DNA of 33,521 nucleotides from a virus: positions 1 through 33,521 of the IMG/VR virus record IMGVR_UViG_3300030331_002250. One strand, written 5' to 3'. Of the stretch, positions 5,784-22,713 are shown in pieces; positions within the stretch are counted from its first letter, which is position 1, and every line of letters begins with the position of its first letter. The notes under the pieces were generated by a model. It saw only the letters and a list, made by a program, of their open reading frames with translations. It had not been told where the DNA came from and did not search any database. The position numbers were made by a program, and so were the translations under genes.

Positions 5784-6710
5784 ATGGCTGGAAATGGCGG
5801 AGTAATTGGACCAACACAAAGTGTTACACCTAGCACTTCTGATATTATTACAACTGTAACTTCAAGTACACCCTCAGCTGTTACAACTAATCCAGTAACT
5901 TCAAAAATAGATTTTATTGTAGTTGCAGGAGGAGCTGGCGGTTCAGGAAAAAGAGGCGGCGGCGGTGGAGCTGGTGGCTATAGATCATTTACATGTGTTT
6001 CAGTTAGCGGCGGTGCTGCTTTGGGAGCTGTCACTATTGGTGGTGGAGGTAGTGGAGTTGGAGGAAATAACGTTGGTAATTCAGGAAGCAACTCATCATT
6101 TGTTGTTTCATGCACAACATATACTTCCCATGGCGGTGGAGGTGGTGGATCACAAGAGCCCGGAGGAAGAGCTGGAAATGCCGGCGGTTCTGGTGGTGGA
6201 GGTGGAGGAAGCTCTGCTTGCGCTGCAGGAGGAGCAGGAAATACCCCTCCGGTGAGTCCTCCTCAAGGAAATCCAGGTGGAGGTGTAAGTGGTGGCGATC
6301 ACGGCGGTGGTGGTGGCGGTGGTGCTACTCAAGCAGGATTTAATTATACTAGTGCTCCAGCTGCTGGTGGAGCAGGTGTTGACATAAGTTCAACTTTTCC
6401 AGGTTCACCTATACCTGCAGTTGCAGGTGGTGGTGGCGGTGGAAATAAAGGATGTTCTGGAGCCCCTGGAGGAACAGGTGGTGGTGGAGCAGGATCTAGA
6501 TCTTATCCTGGAACTGGCGGTGGTAATGGTTCGACTAACACTGGTGGTGGAGGTGGTGGAGACGGAGATGCTAACCCAGGATCTGGCGGTAATGGTGGAT
6601 CTGGTGTTGTTGTTGTAAAACAACAGGGTCGAGCGGCGGCTGCACCAGGAATTTGGGATTTAAACACAGTATATGACTTTGTAAAAGCTGGTAATTGGAC
6701 TAACACTTAA
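5784..6710 (+). CDS. Polyglycine adhesin-like tail protein (single module)
   Basis: A 308-residue protein, extremely rich in glycine. After a Ser/Thr-rich N-terminus (residues 1-40), the strand IDFIVVAGGAGG opens a domain with many runs of four to seven glycines. It ends with VVVVKQQG and a short tail (residues 288-308, GIWDLNTVYDFVKAGNW). The arrangement matches the glycine-rich domain family used by phage adhesins such as Salmonella phage S16 gp38, where polyglycine-II helices pack in a sandwich and the loops bind the receptor. Cysteines and prolines occur in the predicted loops (CTTYTS, ACAAGG, NTPPVSPPQGNPGG). It is paralogous to the longer protein at 7260. A receptor-binding role is inferred. 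Confidence 0.78.
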   Translation: MAGNGGVIGPTQSVTPSTSDIITTVTSSTPSAVTTNPVTSKIDFIVVAGGAGGSGKRGGGGGAGGYRSFTCVSVSGGAALGAVTIGGGGSGVGGNNVGNSGSNSSFVVSCTTYTSHGGGGGGSQEPGGRAGNAGGSGGGGGGSSACAAGGAGNTPPVSPPQGNPGGGVSGGDHGGGGGGGATQAGFNYTSAPAAGGAGVDISSTFPGSPIPAVAGGGGGGNKGCSGAPGGTGGGGAGSRSYPGTGGGNGSTNTGGGGGGDGDANPGSGGNGGSGVVVVKQQGRAAAAPGIWDLNTVYDFVKAGNWTNT

Positions 6711-6758: not shown

Positions 6759-7250
6759 ATGGCACATTTCGCAGAATTAAAAACAATGACAGATCCTACT
6801 GGATTTACATCAGATTCACATCAAGTAGTACAAAGAGTTGTAGTTGTTGGAAACGACTGTGTTCCTTCAGACATGCACCCTGACGGAGAAACTTGGTGTG
6901 TTAATTTTTTCAAAGGTGGTGATTGGAAACAAACTTCTTACAATAATAATTTTAGAAAAAAATATGCAGGCATTGGAGATATTTATGATCCTGTAAAAGA
7001 CAAATTTTTAGAACCACAACCTTTTGCTTCATGGTCTTTAGATGATAACGACGATTGGCAAGCACCAATAACATATCCATCTATAGAAAATGACGGCGAA
7101 TCTCCACCAACTTGGTTTTATATAATTAAGTGGAACGAAACAAAATACGAAGCTGACAACACTAAAGGTTGGGAAGCAACTAAATCAGACGATACAGCGG
7201 AAACCAAAACAATTTACGATTGGAACGGCACAGCTTGGGTGTCCGCATAG
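6759..7250 (+). CDS. Conserved virion protein of the MAHFAE type known from marine phages
   Basis: A 163-residue, Trp- and Asp-rich protein. The opening MAHFAELKTM, the segment VQRVVVVGNDC, KGGDWKQTSYNNNFRKKYAG and the PQPFASWSLDDNDDWQAP block match a small protein family common in cyanomyoviruses and other marine phages. Its usual annotation is structural or hypothetical. An AAAGGAG site and a promoter-like sequence precede it. It lies between two paralogous polyglycine genes, which suggests it is made with, and perhaps works with, the adhesins, for example as a cap or assembly factor. That role is inference. Confidence 0.75.
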   Translation: MAHFAELKTMTDPTGFTSDSHQVVQRVVVVGNDCVPSDMHPDGETWCVNFFKGGDWKQTSYNNNFRKKYAGIGDIYDPVKDKFLEPQPFASWSLDDNDDWQAPITYPSIENDGESPPTWFYIIKWNETKYEADNTKGWEATKSDDTAETKTIYDWNGTAWVSA

Positions 7251-7259
7251 GAGGACACA

Positions 7260-9125
7260 ATGCCTAGAAATAAATCTGGCTCAGCAAATGGTGGTGTAAT
7301 AGGAGTTTCTAATAAAACTTCTTTTGGAAAATGCACTGTTCAAACAAGAACCTCAAGTGGAGATTTTTCAAATGTTACACAGCCAGGAACTAGAGAAATA
7401 ACTGCATTATTAGTTGCAGGTGGTGGCGGAGGTCCAGGTCAAAGAGGCGGTGGTGGTGGAGCTGGCGGTGTAAGAGAATTTAATTTACCTACAACTGGTG
7501 GAGCAACAATTGCAACCACAATTGGTGGTGGTGGAGCTGCTGGACCAAGTAGTGGTGGCGGAGCTTCAGGAACAGATTCAACAATAGTTGCATGCGGAAC
7601 TACATACACTTCAGAAGGTGGTGGTAGAGGTGGTTATGAAGCAACATGCACTGCACAAGCAGGTGGCTCGGGTGGTGGTGGAGCTTCAACAGCTAACGCT
7701 TGTGGCGCATCAGGTAATACTCCCCCTCAACCAGGAAATTTTGGTAACCCAGGTGGTAAAGGTAATTGTTCATCACCCAACATCCAAGGTGGTGGCGGAG
7801 GTGGTGGTGCGGGAGGTGCCGGTGGAAATGCATCTACTACACCTGGAGGTAATGCTGGAGCCGGTGGTGTTGGAATAGCCCCAACAGCTTTTCCAGGTCA
7901 ACCCTTTTTATCAAGTTGTAAAGTCGGTGGTGGTGGCGGTGGTTCAGGTTCTTATGGAACACCCACTTACCAAAACACAAGAGGTGGTTTAGGCGGAGCC
8001 GGTGGCGGAGGTCCCGCTGGTAATGCACCTGATGGCCCTATAACAGGAGAAGCTGGAACAGCAGGCACAGCCAACACTGGTGGTGGAGGTGGTGGAGGAA
8101 GTGTATTTTATCCTGGTAGTGGACCACCAGGAAATATTAATAGTTATGCAGGAGCAGCCGGAGGATCTGGTGTTGCAGCAATTAAAGAATTAGATAAAGC
8201 AACTGGTGTATGGTCAATGCAATCACAGTTTCAAGCAGTAAAATGTGGAACTTGGCCAGCAAAAGGTTTTGATGTAAGTTTCTTAGTAATCGCCGGCGGA
8301 GGCGGAGGTGGAACTCCAGGCGGTGGAGGTGGTGCTGGAGGATATAGAAATTCTTTTGGAAGTGAAACTCCAGGTGGACCAAGTGCAAGCACAGAAGCAC
8401 AAATTTTTTTAGGTGCTGGTACTCATGATATTACAGTCGGAGCTGGTGGTGCAGCAGGTCCAGATTCTGCGCCAGGCGCAGATGGCGGTAGCGGTACTAA
8501 TTCAGTATTTTCAACTATAACTTCAACCGGTGGTGGTGGAGGTGGTGGAGGAGCCCCTCCTCGTACTGGTGTTGCTGGAGGTTCTGGTGGTGGAGCTGGT
8601 AGATGTGAAACCTCAGCACCTGCTGTTGGTGCTGGAACTGCAAATCAAGGTTTTCCAGGAGGTGTTGCTTCTGGTACACCAGAAGGCACAGCTGGAGGCG
8701 GTGGTGGTGCCGGTGCAGCTGGAGGACCGGGACCAAGTGGTTCTGGAGGAAATGGTTTAGCATCATCTATTACAGGCTCATCAGTCACTAGAGGTGGTGG
8801 AGGTGGTGGTACAAAAGACCACCCAGGAAGTCCCCCACAACCATTACCAACTCAAGGTGGTTCTGGTGGTGGAGGTAATGGATCAGCTAATGACCCTGGA
8901 GTTGCCGCACAAGCTGGAAGCGCTAACACTGGCGGTGGTGGTGGAGGTGGCGGTGCTGCCTCTGGAAGATGTGCTGGAGCTGGTGGATCAGGAATAGTTG
9001 TAGTAAGGGGTCCGAGTTCAGTTACTTTTGAGGTAACACCTGGTACTAATTCATCTACAACTCATAGTCCTACGGGAGAGAAAATAGCTACATTTACAGT
9101 AACTGGAACATTGACAGTCTCATAA
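7260..9125 (+). CDS. Polyglycine adhesin-like tail protein (double module)
   Basis: A 621-residue protein with two successive glycine-rich modules. Module 1 runs from ITALLVAGGGGG (near residue 48) to VAAIKELDKATGVWSMQSQF (near residue 310-325). Module 2 starts at VSFLVIAGGGGGG near residue 340 and ends at GIVVVRG near residue 585. The linker (GVWSMQSQFQAVKCGTWP) is homologous to the C-terminal tail of the single-module protein at 5784, so the gene looks like a fusion of two such units. Module 1 shares loop motifs with 5784 (CGTTYTSEGGG, GNTPPQPGNFGNPGG). A plain beta C-terminus follows (residues 590-621). GGAGG precedes the ATG. The likely role is receptor-binding tail adhesin. Confidence 0.78.
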   Translation: MPRNKSGSANGGVIGVSNKTSFGKCTVQTRTSSGDFSNVTQPGTREITALLVAGGGGGPGQRGGGGGAGGVREFNLPTTGGATIATTIGGGGAAGPSSGGGASGTDSTIVACGTTYTSEGGGRGGYEATCTAQAGGSGGGGASTANACGASGNTPPQPGNFGNPGGKGNCSSPNIQGGGGGGGAGGAGGNASTTPGGNAGAGGVGIAPTAFPGQPFLSSCKVGGGGGGSGSYGTPTYQNTRGGLGGAGGGGPAGNAPDGPITGEAGTAGTANTGGGGGGGSVFYPGSGPPGNINSYAGAAGGSGVAAIKELDKATGVWSMQSQFQAVKCGTWPAKGFDVSFLVIAGGGGGGTPGGGGGAGGYRNSFGSETPGGPSASTEAQIFLGAGTHDITVGAGGAAGPDSAPGADGGSGTNSVFSTITSTGGGGGGGGAPPRTGVAGGSGGGAGRCETSAPAVGAGTANQGFPGGVASGTPEGTAGGGGGAGAAGGPGPSGSGGNGLASSITGSSVTRGGGGGGTKDHPGSPPQPLPTQGGSGGGGNGSANDPGVAAQAGSANTGGGGGGGGAASGRCAGAGGSGIVVVRGPSSVTFEVTPGTNSSTTHSPTGEKIATFTVTGTLTVS

Positions 9126-9138
9126 CAAATGTTATATT
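9111..9138 (+). promoter_or_regulatory. Consensus sigma-70-type promoter of the oxygenase cluster
   Basis: A perfect -35 box TTGACA (9111-9116), a 16-bp spacer and a -10 box TATATT (9133-9138) overlap the end of the preceding adhesin gene. Predicted transcription starts near 9145, about ten bases before the ATG at 9155. The same hexamers and the same spacer length recur at 24148 and 33216, which supports a real phage promoter class read by the host polymerase. Confidence 0.72.
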
Positions 9139-9164
9139 AAGTTCATAAAGATATATGAACTTAA
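9137..9164. promoter_or_regulatory. Perfect 11-bp inverted repeat over -10 box, transcription start and start codon
   Basis: TTAAGTTCATA (9137-9147) and TATGAACTTAA (9154-9164) are exact reverse complements separated by AAGATA. The repeat overlaps the last bases of the -10 box, the predicted start site and the ATG (9155-9157). It could be an operator for a repressor. In read-through mRNA from the adhesin genes it could instead be a hairpin hiding the start codon; mRNA begun at the local promoter would lack most of the left arm. The symmetry is certain, the role inferred. Confidence 0.65.
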
Positions 9165-9787
9165 CAAATTACTACTGGTATTATAAATCTGCAATACCTG
9201 AAAGAATATGTGATGAAATAGTTAGATATGGTAAATCTATTTCTGATGAAATAGCCGTTACAGGTGGTTTTAATAATTCTAAAAAATTAAATAAAAAACA
9301 AATTAAAGATTTAAAACAAAAAAGAGATTCTAATATTGTGTGGATGAGTGATAGGTGGATTTACAATGAAATACAACCATATATTAATCTAGCAAATACA
9401 GAAGCAGGTTGGAATTTTACTTGGGATTTTTCTGAGGCTTGTCAATTTACAAAATATGAAAAGGGTCAATTTTATGATTGGCATTGTGATAGTTGGGAAA
9501 AACCTTACCAAGTACAAAACACACAAGATCCTTACCATGGTAAGATAAGAAAATTATCTGTAACAGCTTCTTTGTCAGATCCAAAAGACTACAAAGGTGG
9601 TGAGTTAGAATTTGATTTTAGAAACACAGATCCAGATAAAAAACGAAACATAAAAAAATGCACAGAAATATTACCTAAAGGTTCTTTAGTGGTTTTTCCA
9701 AGTTTCGTGTGGCACAGAGTATGTCCTGTTAAAAAAGGATCAAGATATAGTTTAGTTATATGGAATTTAGGATGGCCGTTTAGATGA
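9155..9787 (+). CDS. 2-oxoglutarate/Fe(II)-dependent oxygenase (PKHD/PiuC-like)
   Basis: A 210-residue protein with the expected iron and cosubstrate residues: H110 and D112 in YDWHCDSW, distal H187 in FPSFVWHRV, and R197 in GSRYSLVIW. The strand LSVTASLSDPKDYKGGELEF is typical of PKHD-type hydroxylases. Such enzymes couple decarboxylation of 2-oxoglutarate to hydroxylation of a substrate. Phage members have been linked to protein (prolyl or lysyl) or nucleic-acid targets, but the substrate cannot be told here. It is the first gene of a three-oxygenase cluster with its own promoter. It overlaps the next gene by four bases (ATGA). Conspicuously Lys/Asn-rich and AT-rich. Confidence 0.88.
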   Translation: MNLTNYYWYYKSAIPERICDEIVRYGKSISDEIAVTGGFNNSKKLNKKQIKDLKQKRDSNIVWMSDRWIYNEIQPYINLANTEAGWNFTWDFSEACQFTKYEKGQFYDWHCDSWEKPYQVQNTQDPYHGKIRKLSVTASLSDPKDYKGGELEFDFRNTDPDKKRNIKKCTEILPKGSLVVFPSFVWHRVCPVKKGSRYSLVIWNLGWPFR

Positions 9788-10467
9788 GCATGACTTTTCC
9801 AAAACAATTACACTTAGAAGAATATTTTAAATGTCCTATTTGGTGGGCAGATCAACCTAAATTTGTAAACAAATTAAATAAAGCCTCTGATATTTATATT
9901 AAAAAGGCTCAGAAAAATTTAAAAAAAGAAATAGATGAAAGAAACAAAAAACTTGGTAATAAAGAAGATATGGGCCATGTGTTTCATTCTACAACTTTAA
10001 TTAACGATCCTAAATTTAAAGATTTACAAAACTATATTGGTGCAACATCACATAATTTATTAAATGAAATGGGTTTTGATTTAACTAATTATCAAGTATT
10101 TACGACTGAAATGTGGGTTCAAGAATTTGCAAAAAAAGGTGGTGGACACCACACTTTACATACACATTGGAATGGACATATGTCTGGATTTTATTTTTTA
10201 AAAGCTAGTGAAAAAACATCTATGCCGGTCTTTGAAGATCCAAGAGCGGGTAACGTAATGAATCTTTTACCAGAAAAAGATAAAACAAAATTAACTCAAG
10301 CAACCTCACAAGTTTTTTTTAAAGTTCAGCCTGGTCGTATAATGTTTTTTCCATCTTACATGCCACATTTATATAGTGTTGATTTAGGGTATGAACCATT
10401 TAGATTTATACATTGGAACTGTCAAGCAATACCGAAAGGAGTACTTAATGTCGTTCAAAAAAAATAA
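9784..10467 (+). CDS. 2-oxoglutarate/Fe(II) oxygenase, TIGR02466-like (2OG-FeII_Oxy_5)
   Basis: A 227-residue protein. The core HTLHTHWNGHMSGFYFLKAS (residues 123-142) corresponds to the H-x-H...SGVYYL signature of this family. EDPR (151-154) and PGRIMFFPSYMPH (183-195) follow, with H195 as distal iron ligand and R207 (EPFRFIHWN) as the likely 2-oxoglutarate-binding arginine. The substrate is unknown. The family is frequent in marine phages and cyanobacteria. It starts inside the preceding stop codon (ATGA), so it is co-translated. It belongs to a different subfamily from its two neighbours, so the cluster was not made by recent tandem duplication. Confidence 0.85.
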   Translation: MSMTFPKQLHLEEYFKCPIWWADQPKFVNKLNKASDIYIKKAQKNLKKEIDERNKKLGNKEDMGHVFHSTTLINDPKFKDLQNYIGATSHNLLNEMGFDLTNYQVFTTEMWVQEFAKKGGGHHTLHTHWNGHMSGFYFLKASEKTSMPVFEDPRAGNVMNLLPEKDKTKLTQATSQVFFKVQPGRIMFFPSYMPHLYSVDLGYEPFRFIHWNCQAIPKGVLNVVQKK

Positions 10468-11080
10468 ATATAGTGTTTTAAAAAAAGCAATAAATAGAGA
10501 AATGGCTGATTTTTGTTATGCCTATTTCTTAAACAAAAGAAGGGTAGCAAGATTTTTGTTTGACCAAAAATTTATATCACCATTTACAGAGTACTTCGGA
10601 GTTTGGAATGATACTCAAGTGCCAAATACATACTCACATTATGGTGACATGGTTATGGAAACTTTACTACAAAAAGTAAAACCTATTATGGAAAAACATA
10701 CAGGTTTAAAATTATCAGAAACATATTCTTATTCTAGGATATATAAAAAAGGAGATGAATTAAAAAGACATAAGGATAGATTTAGTTGTGAGATATCTAC
10801 AACTTTAAATTTAGGTGGTGATGAGTGGCCTATATATTTAGACCCAACGGGTAAAGAAAGACAAGCTGGTATTGAAATTAAACTAGAACCAGGTGATATG
10901 CTTATATACTCTGGATGTGATTTAGAACATTGGAGAGAAGAATTTAAAGGTGACCATTGTGGTCAGGTATTTCTACACTACAATAAAAAAGGCTCTAAGA
11001 TGGCTAAAGAAAATGAATTTGATAAACGGCCTTTCGTAGGGCTACCTGCATGGTTTAAGGGCTTTAAATTACCAAAATAA
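10448..11080 (+). CDS. 2-oxoglutarate/Fe(II) oxygenase, third of the cluster
   Basis: A 210-residue protein counted from the ATG at 10448, chosen because AAAGGAG lies six bases upstream; an in-frame start at 10391 would have none and would overlap the previous gene by 77 bases. Iron ligands are H108 and D110 (KRHKDRFSCE) and H161 (DLEHWREEF), followed by CGQVFLHYNK. This is the pattern of a phage hydroxylase family ending in HWRE...QVFLHY. Here the usual C-terminal Arg that binds 2-oxoglutarate is not in its standard place; R163 may take over. EIKLEPGDMLIYSG forms the strand before the distal His. The C-terminus is basic (PAWFKGFKLPK). Substrate unknown. Confidence 0.85.
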   Translation: MSFKKNKYSVLKKAINREMADFCYAYFLNKRRVARFLFDQKFISPFTEYFGVWNDTQVPNTYSHYGDMVMETLLQKVKPIMEKHTGLKLSETYSYSRIYKKGDELKRHKDRFSCEISTTLNLGGDEWPIYLDPTGKERQAGIEIKLEPGDMLIYSGCDLEHWREEFKGDHCGQVFLHYNKKGSKMAKENEFDKRPFVGLPAWFKGFKLPK

Positions 11081-11089
11081 TATAGTAGA

Positions 11090-11155
11090 ATACTAATCTG
11101 GCGAGAGATACACCACCACACCATCTCTCGCCTGATTAATATATGGGATTAGTAT
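11090..11155 (+). promoter_or_regulatory. Long stem-loop with two alternative outer stems, reaching the tail-hub start codon
   Basis: GGCGAGAGAT (11100-11109) pairs perfectly with ATCTCTCGCC (11123-11132) around a 13-nt C/A loop. Beyond a T-T mismatch, TAATC (11094-11098) pairs with GATTA (11134-11138). Alternatively ATACTAATC (11090-11098) pairs perfectly with GATTAGTAT (11147-11155), which contains the first two bases of the ATG at 11154. No T tract follows, so it is not a typical terminator. It may be an RNA-processing site or a translational control element between the oxygenase cluster and the tail-hub gene. Confidence 0.6.
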
Positions 11156-13325
11156 GTTACAGAAATTAGGTTTTGCACCAGGGTTTAATAAACAAGTTAC
11201 GGAGACCGGGGCCGAGGGCCAATGGTTTGATGGTGACAATGTTAGATTTAGATATGGGACTCCTGAAAAAATAGGAGGTTGGCAACAATTAGGTGAAAAT
11301 AAATTAACTGGAGCAGCCAGAGCTCTACACCATTTTGATGATAATGCTGGTATTAAATATGCTGCCATAGGCACTAATAGAATTCTATACGTTTATTCAG
11401 GTGGTATTTTTTATGATATCCACCCTATACGAACAACAATATCAGGAGCTAACTTTACCAGCACATCTTCTTCAAATACTGTTACCATAACCGTAGGTTC
11501 ATCTCATGGATTAAATGAAAACGACATTGTTTTATTTGACAACGTCACTGGATTAAGTGGGTCTACTTTTAGTAACTCTACTTTTGAAGACGAAAAATTT
11601 ATGGTGACATCGATTCCAAGCGCTACAACATTTACTATAACGATGGCAAGTGTAGAGTCCGGTTCAGCTTTAACAAATGCAGGTTCTGCAGATGTTAAAA
11701 TATATTACACTGTGGGACCATCACAACAATTAGGTGGTTTTGGTTGGGGCACAGGTTTATGGTCTGGTACTGCTTTAGGTGCATCTACAACAACTTTAGC
11801 CTCTACAATTAACGACACCGTAACCGATATACCTTTAACCAATAGCGCAGCTTTTCCAGCGTCTGGTGAAATAAGAATAGGATCAGAGGATATAAGTTTT
11901 ACAAGCAATAACACTACAACTAATATTTTAAGTGGTGGTTCGAGAGAAGTTAATGGAACAGCTAAAGCAGGACATAGTGCAGGTGCAACTGTAACAGACA
12001 TTTCTAAATTTGTTGCTTGGGGTGATCCATCATCTGCTGACTTTACGATTGATCCAGGTTTATGGGTATTAGACAACTTTGGAACAAAGTTAATAGCATT
12101 AATATATAATGGTGCATGTTTTGAATGGGATGCTGCAGCAGCAAATGCTACAGGTAATAGAGCAACAATTATTGCAAACGCTCCTACAAAATCAAGACAC
12201 GTTTTAGTTTCTACACCAGATCGTCACTTAGTTTTCTTTGGAACAGAAACAACAGTTGGTGATACAACTACACAAGACGATATGTTTATTAGATTTTCTG
12301 ATCAAGAAAATATTTCTGGCACCAATGCGTATACTGTTACTGCAACCAACACAGCTGGAACACAAAGACTAGCTGACGGTTCTGAAATAATGGGTGCTAT
12401 TAGAGGTCGGGATGCAATTTATATTTGGACTGATACAGCACTATTTCTTATGAAATTTGTTGGCCAACCTTTTACTTTCTCGTTTGAACAAGTAGGAACA
12501 AACTGTGGATTATTTGGTAAGAATGCATGTATTGAGGTAGACGGCACAGCTTATTGGATGTCAGAGAACGGATTCTTTTCTTATGATGGTCAATTAAAAT
12601 CACTACCTAGTTTAGTTGAAGACCATGTGTATGATGATATTAACGCTACATCTAGAGACTTAATTAACGCTGGATTAAATAATTTATTTGGAGAAGTAAA
12701 CTGGTTTTATTGCACAGAGAACTCAGATCAAATTGATAGAGTTGTTACATACAATTATTTAGACTCTACACCTAGAAGACCGATATGGACTACGGGCACA
12801 TTACCTAGAGCAGCTTGGCAAGACTCCGCTGTTTTTGATAGACCTCATGCTACGTTCTATGATCCAGATAGTAACGCCTCGTATGATGTTACAGGTAACA
12901 CGGATGGATGCACAATCTACTATCAGCAGGAAACAGGGACCGATCAAGTAAATGCCGGTGGAGTTGTTACTGCAGTTATTGGAACTATAACGTCTGGTGA
13001 TTTTGATATTACTAGAAGAACAATTAGAGGAGATACTGTAGGCATGATGGATCTAAGAGGAGATGGTGAGTTTATAATGAGAATTAGTAGATTTATTCCT
13101 GACTTTATTTCTCAAACAGGCAACACACAGATTAGTTTTCAAACGAGAGATTTTCCAAACAGTACACCAACGACAACTAATTTTACAGCTACCCCAACCA
13201 CAACAAAAGTTGACACTAGATTAAGAGCTAGATCTATAGCGTTAAAGGTGGCAAATACAGCAACTAACCAAGATTGGAAACTTGGTACATTTAGATTAGA
13301 TATACACCCTGGAGGTAGAAGATAG
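11154..13325 (+). CDS. P22 gp10-like tail hub / DNA-stabilisation protein
   Basis: A 723-residue protein. The opening (LGFAPGFNKQVTETGAEGQW, FDGDNVRFRYGTPEKIGGWQ) and the ending (RARSIALKV, DWKLGTFRLDIHPGGRR) are those of the packaged-DNA stabilisation / tail-hub family related to P22 gp10, a ring under the neck that plugs DNA and holds the tail spikes. Two inserts interrupt it: a beta domain at about 105-165 (SSHGLNENDIVLFDN) and, at about 211-283, a third copy of the insert found in the genes at 393 and 1337 (FPASGEIRIGSEDISFTS, VNGTAKAGHSAGATV). There is only a weak GGGATT ribosome site, and the start lies in a possible RNA stem. It overlaps the next start by one base (TAGTG). Confidence 0.82.
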   Translation: MLQKLGFAPGFNKQVTETGAEGQWFDGDNVRFRYGTPEKIGGWQQLGENKLTGAARALHHFDDNAGIKYAAIGTNRILYVYSGGIFYDIHPIRTTISGANFTSTSSSNTVTITVGSSHGLNENDIVLFDNVTGLSGSTFSNSTFEDEKFMVTSIPSATTFTITMASVESGSALTNAGSADVKIYYTVGPSQQLGGFGWGTGLWSGTALGASTTTLASTINDTVTDIPLTNSAAFPASGEIRIGSEDISFTSNNTTTNILSGGSREVNGTAKAGHSAGATVTDISKFVAWGDPSSADFTIDPGLWVLDNFGTKLIALIYNGACFEWDAAAANATGNRATIIANAPTKSRHVLVSTPDRHLVFFGTETTVGDTTTQDDMFIRFSDQENISGTNAYTVTATNTAGTQRLADGSEIMGAIRGRDAIYIWTDTALFLMKFVGQPFTFSFEQVGTNCGLFGKNACIEVDGTAYWMSENGFFSYDGQLKSLPSLVEDHVYDDINATSRDLINAGLNNLFGEVNWFYCTENSDQIDRVVTYNYLDSTPRRPIWTTGTLPRAAWQDSAVFDRPHATFYDPDSNASYDVTGNTDGCTIYYQQETGTDQVNAGGVVTAVIGTITSGDFDITRRTIRGDTVGMMDLRGDGEFIMRISRFIPDFISQTGNTQISFQTRDFPNSTPTTTNFTATPTTTKVDTRLRARSIALKVANTATNQDWKLGTFRLDIHPGGRR

Positions 13326-21770: not shown

Positions 21771-22246
21771 TGAATCTTTCACGTAACTTCAACCTCTCAG
21801 AGCTTATTAAATCAGACACAGCTATCAGGCTGGGTATTGATAACAATCCTAATGCAGATCAAATAGAAAAATTAAAACTACTTTGTGAAAATATTTTACA
21901 ACCGGTACGTGACCACTTCGGCAGAGTAACGGTGACCAGCTGCTTTCGTAGTCCTGAGTTATGTGTAAAAATTGGCAGCAGTTTAAATTCGCAACATACC
22001 CGTGCGGAGGCGGCGGACTTCGAATGTCTAGGCACAAGCAACGCTGAAGTCTTTGATTGGATCAAAGCAAACCTACCGTATGATCAAATGATATTAGAGT
22101 TTTTTACTCCGGGTGAACCAAACTCGGGGTGGATCCACTGCAGCTATGTATCTGATAAACCAAGAAAACAATTATTAAGAGCGTACAAAGAAGAAGGTAA
22201 AACTAAATACAAACCTGTTATTGGTAACGCTGTAGACTTAGTGTGA
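21770..22246 (+). CDS. Peptidase M15 family endolysin (peptidoglycan peptidase)
   Basis: A 158-residue protein matching the Peptidase_M15_3 family: NFNLSELIKSDTAIRLGI at the start, then ILQPVRDHFGRVTVTSCFRS. The zinc site SQHTRAEAADFE has H76 and D83, and H123 lies in SGWIHCSY. The usual SxHxxGxAxD signature is kept except that its Gly is Ala79. It would cut peptide bonds in peptidoglycan to lyse the host. No signal peptide is seen, so release needs the holin-like neighbour. The middle of the gene (about 21901-22020) is near 52% GC, far above the window, suggesting a different origin. It overlaps the next GTG start (GTGA). Confidence 0.87.
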   Translation: MNLSRNFNLSELIKSDTAIRLGIDNNPNADQIEKLKLLCENILQPVRDHFGRVTVTSCFRSPELCVKIGSSLNSQHTRAEAADFECLGTSNAEVFDWIKANLPYDQMILEFFTPGEPNSGWIHCSYVSDKPRKQLLRAYKEEGKTKYKPVIGNAVDLV

Positions 22247-22713
22247 AAACAATAATAATTGATAATTTTTTATCAAAGTCTGAGTGTAATTTTTTAATAC
22301 AGTTTTATAAAGATAATACAGATAAAGTTGAAAAATTTAATGATACTAAAATTTTAGTCTTAAATATAGCTAGTGAGGGCTTAGATTTTTTTACACCTAA
22401 ATTAAATAATGTTGTAAAAGAATATAATTCAACAATTGACTATATTCAAATAGTAGAGTGGCCCGTTGGGTCAAGAAAAAGTATTCACGTAGATAATGTG
22501 CACGACAACACAACTATTTCATCAATAACTTACTTAAATGACAACTACGAAGGTGGTCAAACTTTTTTTGAAGAGGGGACTATTTTCAAACCAAAGTTGG
22601 GTAGAACTTTATTTTTTGATGGCAGGCATTATAGACATGGAGTTAAAACTATTGAAAAAGAAACAAGGTACGTTGTTGCTACTTGGTATAAAAAATTAGA
22701 TCCAGGCCTTTAA
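22243..22713 (+). CDS. 2-oxoglutarate/Fe(II) oxygenase, prolyl 4-hydroxylase-like
   Basis: A 156-residue protein starting at a GTG inside the endolysin stop. Catalytic residues are H82 and D84 (KSIHVDNVHD), H132 (YRHGVKTI) and R142 (TRYVVATWY). The NYEGGQTFFEEG strand is the standard E/D-GG-x-T/L-x-F element of P4H-type enzymes. It is the shortest and fourth such enzyme in the window, in yet another subfamily. The substrate is unknown. The 3' end runs 18 bases into the 3' end of the opposing helicase gene with no terminator between. Late expression with lysis genes is suggested by its position. Confidence 0.85.
   Translation: MKTIIIDNFLSKSECNFLIQFYKDNTDKVEKFNDTKILVLNIASEGLDFFTPKLNNVVKEYNSTIDYIQIVEWPVGSRKSIHVDNVHDNTTISSITYLNDNYEGGQTFFEEGTIFKPKLGRTLFFDGRHYRHGVKTIEKETRYVVATWYKKLDPGL

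Follow-up and report, generated by a model that had tools for sequence, protein, structure and literature searches.

An oxygenase-family gene cassette co-inherited with Gly-rich tail adhesins in pelagiphages

Ocean phage genomes are full of 2-oxoglutarate (2OG) oxygenases whose substrates are unassigned. Cyanophages carry many of them (PMC3037559), and Wittmers et al. 2022 (PMC9599517) describe HTVC023P-type pelagiphages as having eight non-orthologous 2OG genes, often beside 'ferrochelatases', and judge the 2OG proteins unsuitable for phylogeny or for tracing origins. In HTVC008M five such genes stand side by side, two of them annotated as phytanoyl-CoA dioxygenases, and Mosig has a similar oxygenase run near a tail-fibre gene. 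Since such clusters have already been reported, the presence of one is not new, and the initial annotation, which found this many such enzymes in one small phage striking, overstated the matter: the runs in HTVC008M and Mosig are comparable or longer, and eight families had already been counted in the phage group (PMC9599517). Among described receptor-binding proteins, the polyglycine-II sandwich adhesins (S16/PP01 gp38) sit at the tail tip, are rich in Gly and bear receptor-binding loops (PMC12892980); the adhesins considered here, which match PF21722, resemble them in this general description.

The locus and its predicted enzymes

The window (the whole 33.5 kb stretch of DNA analysed, virus record IMGVR_UViG_3300030331_002250) encodes a DNA polymerase with 63% identity to that of pelagiphage HTVC027P and 55–62% to those of HTVC023P and 023Pt_psg01, and its hub is about 44% identical to those of the same three phages. 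Judged by these identities, the window virus is a relative of HTVC023P-type pelagiphages, and its host is probably SAR11, the ocean's commonest bacteria. Three genes, OG1, OG2 and OG3, lie on the + strand, preceded by a Gly-rich adhesin gene whose end is at 9125 and followed by a tail-hub-like gene that starts at 11154, in the following arrangement:

5784..6710, + strand: Gly-rich adhesin 1 with GNTPPVSPPQGNPGG loop (PF21722)
6759..7250, + strand: s163, small protein accompanying Gly-rich adhesins (phrog_7759)
7260..9125, + strand: Gly-rich adhesin 2, two matched stretches (PF21722)
9111..9138, + strand: predicted sigma-70-type promoter, TTGACA-16-TATATT with TG before the -10 (consensus 11/12; enriched before OG1 in relatives)
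9155..9787, + strand: OG1, predicted 2OG-Fe(II) oxygenase, PKHD/P4H-like, 210 aa (PF13640; H110xD112, H187, R197)
9784..10467, + strand: OG2, putative 2OG-Fe(II) oxygenase, 227 aa (PF13759; H126xH128...H195)
10448..11080, + strand: OG3, predicted beta-helix oxygenase, 210 aa (phrog_2954; H108xD110, H161, Q173)
11100..11132, + strand: hairpin 3' of OG3, constant loop core CCACCAC, compensating stem variation (comparison of relatives)
11154..13325, + strand: tail-hub/stabilisation-like structural gene, backbone anchor A (phrog_3287)
22243..22713, + strand: OG4, separate P4H-like predicted 2OG oxygenase after the M15 endolysin (PF13640; H82xD84)

Much of what the initial annotation had described at this locus stands, namely three consecutive, non-identical oxygenase genes placed between the adhesins and the tail hub, and a fourth, P4H-like gene after the endolysin. 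The three ORFs overlap (an ATGA overlap at the OG1/OG2 junction and 20 nt at OG2/OG3) and belong to separate families (PF13640, PF13759 and phrog_2954), their neighbours are PF21722 Gly-rich genes and a phrog_3287 hub-like gene, and OG4 (22243–22713) matches PF13640. The recognisable iron triad that it saw in each holds for OG1, OG3 and OG4, and for OG2 only loosely (HxH, not HxD). Catalytic residues of OG1–3 are invariant in 156–190 sequences per family, and the median dN/dS (0.16 for OG1, 0.16 for OG2 and 0.13 for OG3, with 0.11 for the hub) indicates purifying selection, so these are real genes.

OG1 matches PF13640 (E 5e-17, 63 bits, cut-off 27), and its H110, D112, H187 and R197 show 100% conservation in 175 sequences; the family profile and the HxD...H...R/K motif together place it, as predicted from sequence, in the 2OG-Fe(II) oxygenase superfamily. 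Its profile matches PKHD-type hydroxylases and bacterial prolyl 4-hydroxylases with the catalytic motif in register (3dkq, Sbal_3634/PKHD type, 7.5e-10; PiuC 9ghl, 2.7e-8; P4H 5c5t, 4e-5), at low identity; the matches to PiuC, Sbal_3634 and P4H do not indicate a substrate. OG1 homologues in cyanophages adjoin uvsY/uvsW. OG2 matches PF13759 (E 5e-14, 53 bits, cut-off 27) and has invariant H126, H128, H195 and R207, in which HxH...H replaces HxD...H; no Asp or Glu was found two residues after H126 in 35 diverse members, so the canonical HxD/E...H triad is absent, and the site could possibly be a three-His one. Its structure model (pLDDT 93) matches 3bvc/2rg4, then PHD2, and the match to these PF13759 proteins, which are themselves uncharacterised, appears both by sequence (2.8e-9) and by fold (3bvc, 1.6e-11); profile and modelled fold thus assign OG2 to the same superfamily. 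OG4 matches PF13640 (E 1.5e-10), with HVD at 82–84 and a distal HGVK...R at 132–142, and we reject the PHROG label 'DNA endonuclease' of its best-matching family.

The true start of OG3 is the ATG at 10448, with AAAGGAG just upstream, and the longer start at 10391 in the ORF list is unnecessary. OG3 belongs to phrog_2954 (2e-52), which PHROG labels 'ferrochelatase'; it matched no Pfam family, and its sequence profile found no relative among PDB sequences, the matches coming from fold comparison alone. The AlphaFold (AF2) model (pLDDT 95) has the oxygenase double-stranded beta-helix and gives 687 Foldseek matches in the PDB at E<=0.001, prolyl hydroxylases first. The best is Pseudomonas putida P4H (4j25, 2.7e-9), and the HIF prolyl hydroxylase PHD2 scores about Z 15 across some 170 residues. 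Identity to these two is 11–15%, a Gln takes the place of the Arg that usually binds 2OG, and SnoN, another 2OG enzyme, scores as well (Z 16); the resemblance to prolyl hydroxylases is one of modelled fold. H108, D110 and H161 show 100% conservation in 190 sequences, and on the model OG3 has the beta-helix fold and HxD...H motif of the 2OG-Fe(II) oxygenase superfamily. The invariant Q173 sits where an Arg/Lys (eighth core strand) usually binds 2-oxoglutarate, leaving the expected basic residue absent; the invariant R97, R163 or H177 could replace it. Given the HxH of OG2, where HxD would be expected, and the Gln of OG3 at the position that normally binds 2-oxoglutarate, we only infer the activity and co-substrate of these two.

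We reject a ferrochelatase identity for OG3, given the lack of a Pfam match and that the Foldseek and VIA-align matches listed are 2OG oxygenases. Relatives of OG3 occur in 156 phage records, many of them named 'ferrochelatase', and entries under that name that are related to OG3 include UAW59367.1, QGZ17696.1, AGE60402.1, phrog_2954 and phrog_3531. Phage entries of this kind appear, from the modelled fold, to be misnamed oxygenase-fold proteins, and correcting the name bears on claims of viral haem and iron metabolism.

Promoter before OG1 and hairpin after OG3

The initial annotation had also given the cluster its own promoter, and this is borne out by a predicted site at 9111–9138 (TTGACA-16-TATATT, extended -10 with TG, 11/12 consensus). 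Such sites are enriched at this junction across relatives: of 180, 44% have a strong one (score >=11 of 13) ahead of OG1 vs. 1.2% of shuffles, and 0% have one ahead of OG2 or OG3. The -35 hexamer lies inside the end of the Gly-rich gene, and part of its conservation is therefore due to coding sequence. Enriched promoter sites are also seen for the hub and s163, and HTVC033P has its own site before OG1 (TTGAAT-16-TATAAT, judged by eye).

A hairpin with the constant loop CCACCAC is present in 68/105 OG3–hub junctions of the HTVC023P-like lineage (lineage A) and in 2/104 junctions without an adjacent OG3. Its stem has at least 7 Watson-Crick pairs in all 68 of the 68 junctions, vs. 1.5% after flank shuffling, and stems of widely differing sequence keep their pairing (e.g. 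L008, L027, L068 and L249); an Rfam search of the window, hairpin included, gave no match. The hairpin may be a terminator, but its T run is short, and none is present in HTVC033P, in which OG3 and the gene after it overlap. Set against the usual marks of a moron (own promoter and terminator), the promoter is conserved, while the hairpin, conserved in lineage A, has no long T run and is missing in HTVC033P.

Exchange of the cassette with the adhesin class

We sampled IMG/VR twice, each time choosing loci by a backbone gene and irrespective of oxygenase content: the hub defines set A, and the HTVC033P structural gene gp56 defines set B. The genes upstream of each anchor were clustered and labelled, with at least two OG genes counted as a cassette in set B. 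The cassette was present in 9/9 Gly-rich loci of set B and in 0/22 loci with other fibres (p=5e-8). On the set B anchor tree (one short-branched FastTree, built on a single protein from fragmentary contigs), each trait underwent 8 parsimony changes with 0 discordant loci, and 8 changes are as frequent as with shuffled labels; the module of adhesin and cassette is therefore freely exchanged, and in set B always jointly. Likewise, between the near-identical backbones L293/L294 and L292/L315/L334, adhesin and cassette differ together. Set A, which has the window's backbone, carries the cassette in 50/50 Gly-rich loci and in 0/4 LamG/DUF7483 loci; its Kelch loci have oxygenases in 11/11 cases, while the Kelch fibres of set B come without them. 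Co-occurrence of cluster and adhesins across relatives, the absence of which was to count against the initial annotation, is thus complete in two unrelated backbones. A first co-occurrence table, of short loci from a single backbone, is superseded by this comparison.

The HTVC033P backbone differs from that of the window, with no hub match and a polymerase of 22–24% identity over parts. Between the same two, OG1–3 share 78–80% identity and s163 75%, and cassettes of set B and set A reach up to 87–92%. With low-complexity sequence masked and Gly-rich genes not counted, set B counterparts are confined, apart from the cassette, to g08, s163, the M15 endolysin and g33; most of the window's remaining genes, among them the hub, match nothing in those loci.

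The slot between fibre and hub holds further genes in relatives, encoding a tryptophan halogenase (PF04820, L210:4118-5593), a sulfotransferase (PF00685, L210:2162-2956) and a NodU-type carbamoyltransferase (PF16861, L270:8440-9936). In this slot HTVC027P has three inverted genes before the hub (gp72–gp74, L609:10093-11754), one annotated as a 2OG oxygenase, and no Gly-rich fibre. A family of ~172 aa proteins (f12, e.g. L057:2108-2623) lies repeatedly between set A oxygenases, with up to four tandem copies in L414, and matched no Pfam family.

Residues 149–166 of adhesin 1, the GNTPPVSPPQGNPGG loop region, are identical to HTVC023P, and the loop recurs in adhesins that are otherwise hard to align, also in HTVC033P, HTVC023P and 023Pt_psg01; pattern scans show that the wider family often carries GNTPSTSPSQGN in its place. 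The Gly-rich proteins of HTVC033P are gp62/gp64, with the segment AGNTPPVSPPQGNAGG, and in HTVC023P and 023Pt_psg01 Gly-rich proteins bearing GNTPP are paired with OG1–3. Prolines in GNTPPVSPPQGNPGG-type loops had been suggested as the target of the enzymes. Among motif-anchored loci, those with GNTPPxxPPQGN have at least two oxygenases in 44/53 cases vs. 17/90 for GNTPSxxPSQGN (crude p=4e-14), but this association is lost on GC stratification (p=0.10–0.16, Mantel-Haenszel over three GC strata), nearly all loci with GC<0.40 having oxygenases regardless of motif. With the association confounded by GC/lineage, we do not claim a Pro-Pro substrate motif. Many higher-GC phages have Gly-rich adhesins with the same motif but without the oxygenase cluster. 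The small protein s163 accompanies Gly-rich adhesins with or without oxygenases, including in many higher-GC phages, and is perhaps an adhesin partner or chaperone.

Proposed role and comparison with known systems

We tentatively propose, as the best explanation and at somewhat less than an even chance, that the OG enzymes hydroxylate the adhesins with which they are co-inherited. Pelagiphages would carry a mobile late-gene module of one or more Gly-rich tail adhesins, s163 and three distinct iron-dependent oxygenases; the oxygenases would be made late in infection from their own promoter and by read-through, would act in the cytoplasm on freshly made adhesins, and would hydroxylate Pro, Lys, Asn or comparable side chains of the part that binds the receptor, which may tune adhesin stability or receptor choice. 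Hydroxylation of virion proteins was already the idea of the initial annotation, and the evidence divides. In its favour are co-inheritance, such that co-switching with the adhesin class lends real support, though not proof, to the adhesin as substrate, and the nearest folds, among them protein prolyl hydroxylases, of which one has a solved complex with EF-Tu. The halogenase, sulfotransferase and carbamoyltransferase of the same slot would suit decoration of proteins or glycans, and a chlorella virus, as cited in PMC9301287, is a precedent for viral hydroxyproline. Against it, adjacency alone could explain the co-transfer, as neighbouring genes can move together without acting on each other; and many higher-GC phages have such adhesins, motif included, but no cluster, so the adhesin fold does not need modification. 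Oxygenases also accompany the Kelch fibres of set A and occupy the slot of HTVC027P, where Gly-rich fibres are lacking, cyanophage homologues of OG1 have uvsY/uvsW as neighbours, the customary 2OG-binding Arg/Lys is missing from OG3, and the Pro-Pro link is confounded. The open-access literature covered holds no bacteriophage case of virion hydroxylation or of a tail-fibre hydroxylase, which is weak evidence of absence.

Alternatively, and as the main rival account, the slot may be a recombining cargo hotspot in which the oxygenases ride by adjacency and modify a host protein (e.g. EF-Tu or a ribosomal protein) to favour infection. The halogenase, sulfotransferase, carbamoyltransferase and other genes found there would fit such cargo, as would the moron-like pairing of a conserved promoter with the lineage A hairpin and the fact that OG3's top fold match, P. 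putida P4H, was solved with EF-Tu; yet the set B cassette never stands beside the LamG, Kelch or f2/f19 fibres of the same slot (0/22), which adjacency would permit, and we consider this account possible but doubtful. A metabolic role, in which use of 2-oxoglutarate or a small molecule alters the nitrogen, carbon or iron state of the host, has been put forward for cyanophages (PMC3037559), and a transcriptome study raises the consumption of iron and 2OG by a pelagiphage oxygenase (PMC12753301), but it leaves unexplained both the three non-orthologous enzymes and the restriction to one adhesin class in set B, and is in our view unlikely. More improbable still is modification or repair of nucleic acids by oxidation: the cyanophage neighbours uvsY/uvsW of OG1 homologues and the DNA repair suggested for cyanophage 2OG enzymes (PMC3037559) would agree with it, whereas no AlkB-type or TET/JBP family is found among the Pfam or PHROG matches, the genes lie in the tail region far from replication genes, and the chains matched by the OG1 profile are of PKHD and P4H type.

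For adhesin hydroxylation, the reading we prefer, co-inheritance with one adhesin class makes the substrate question directly testable in cultured HTVC033P (on HTCC1062). If it is true, host-range proteins of very abundant viruses bear modifications that are lacking in recombinant proteins and escape host prediction from sequence. Phages might more generally carry cognate oxygenase sets, joined in some by halogenases, sulfotransferases and carbamoyltransferases, with which they decorate the proteins that bind their receptors, and might inherit and exchange enzyme set and adhesin class as a unit; this wider proposal is speculative, and we would expect it to fail rather than hold.

The pelagimyophage host recognition cluster (PMC7029224) is, as here, a hypervariable island of tail-fibre genes with enzyme genes among them, but it was described for myophages, and the available text emphasises glycosyltransferases and does not describe an oxygenase–adhesin linkage. 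Closer still, the HTVC023P-type clusters (PMC9599517) have the same gene kinds and the same adjacency of 'ferrochelatase' and 2OG oxygenase in the same phage group as the window. There the ferrochelatase name is taken at face value, and the text consulted makes no connection with adhesin type, whereas here OG3 has a predicted oxygenase fold and the cassette co-switches with Gly-rich adhesins; the presence of the cluster was already known, and this co-switching is apparently the new part.
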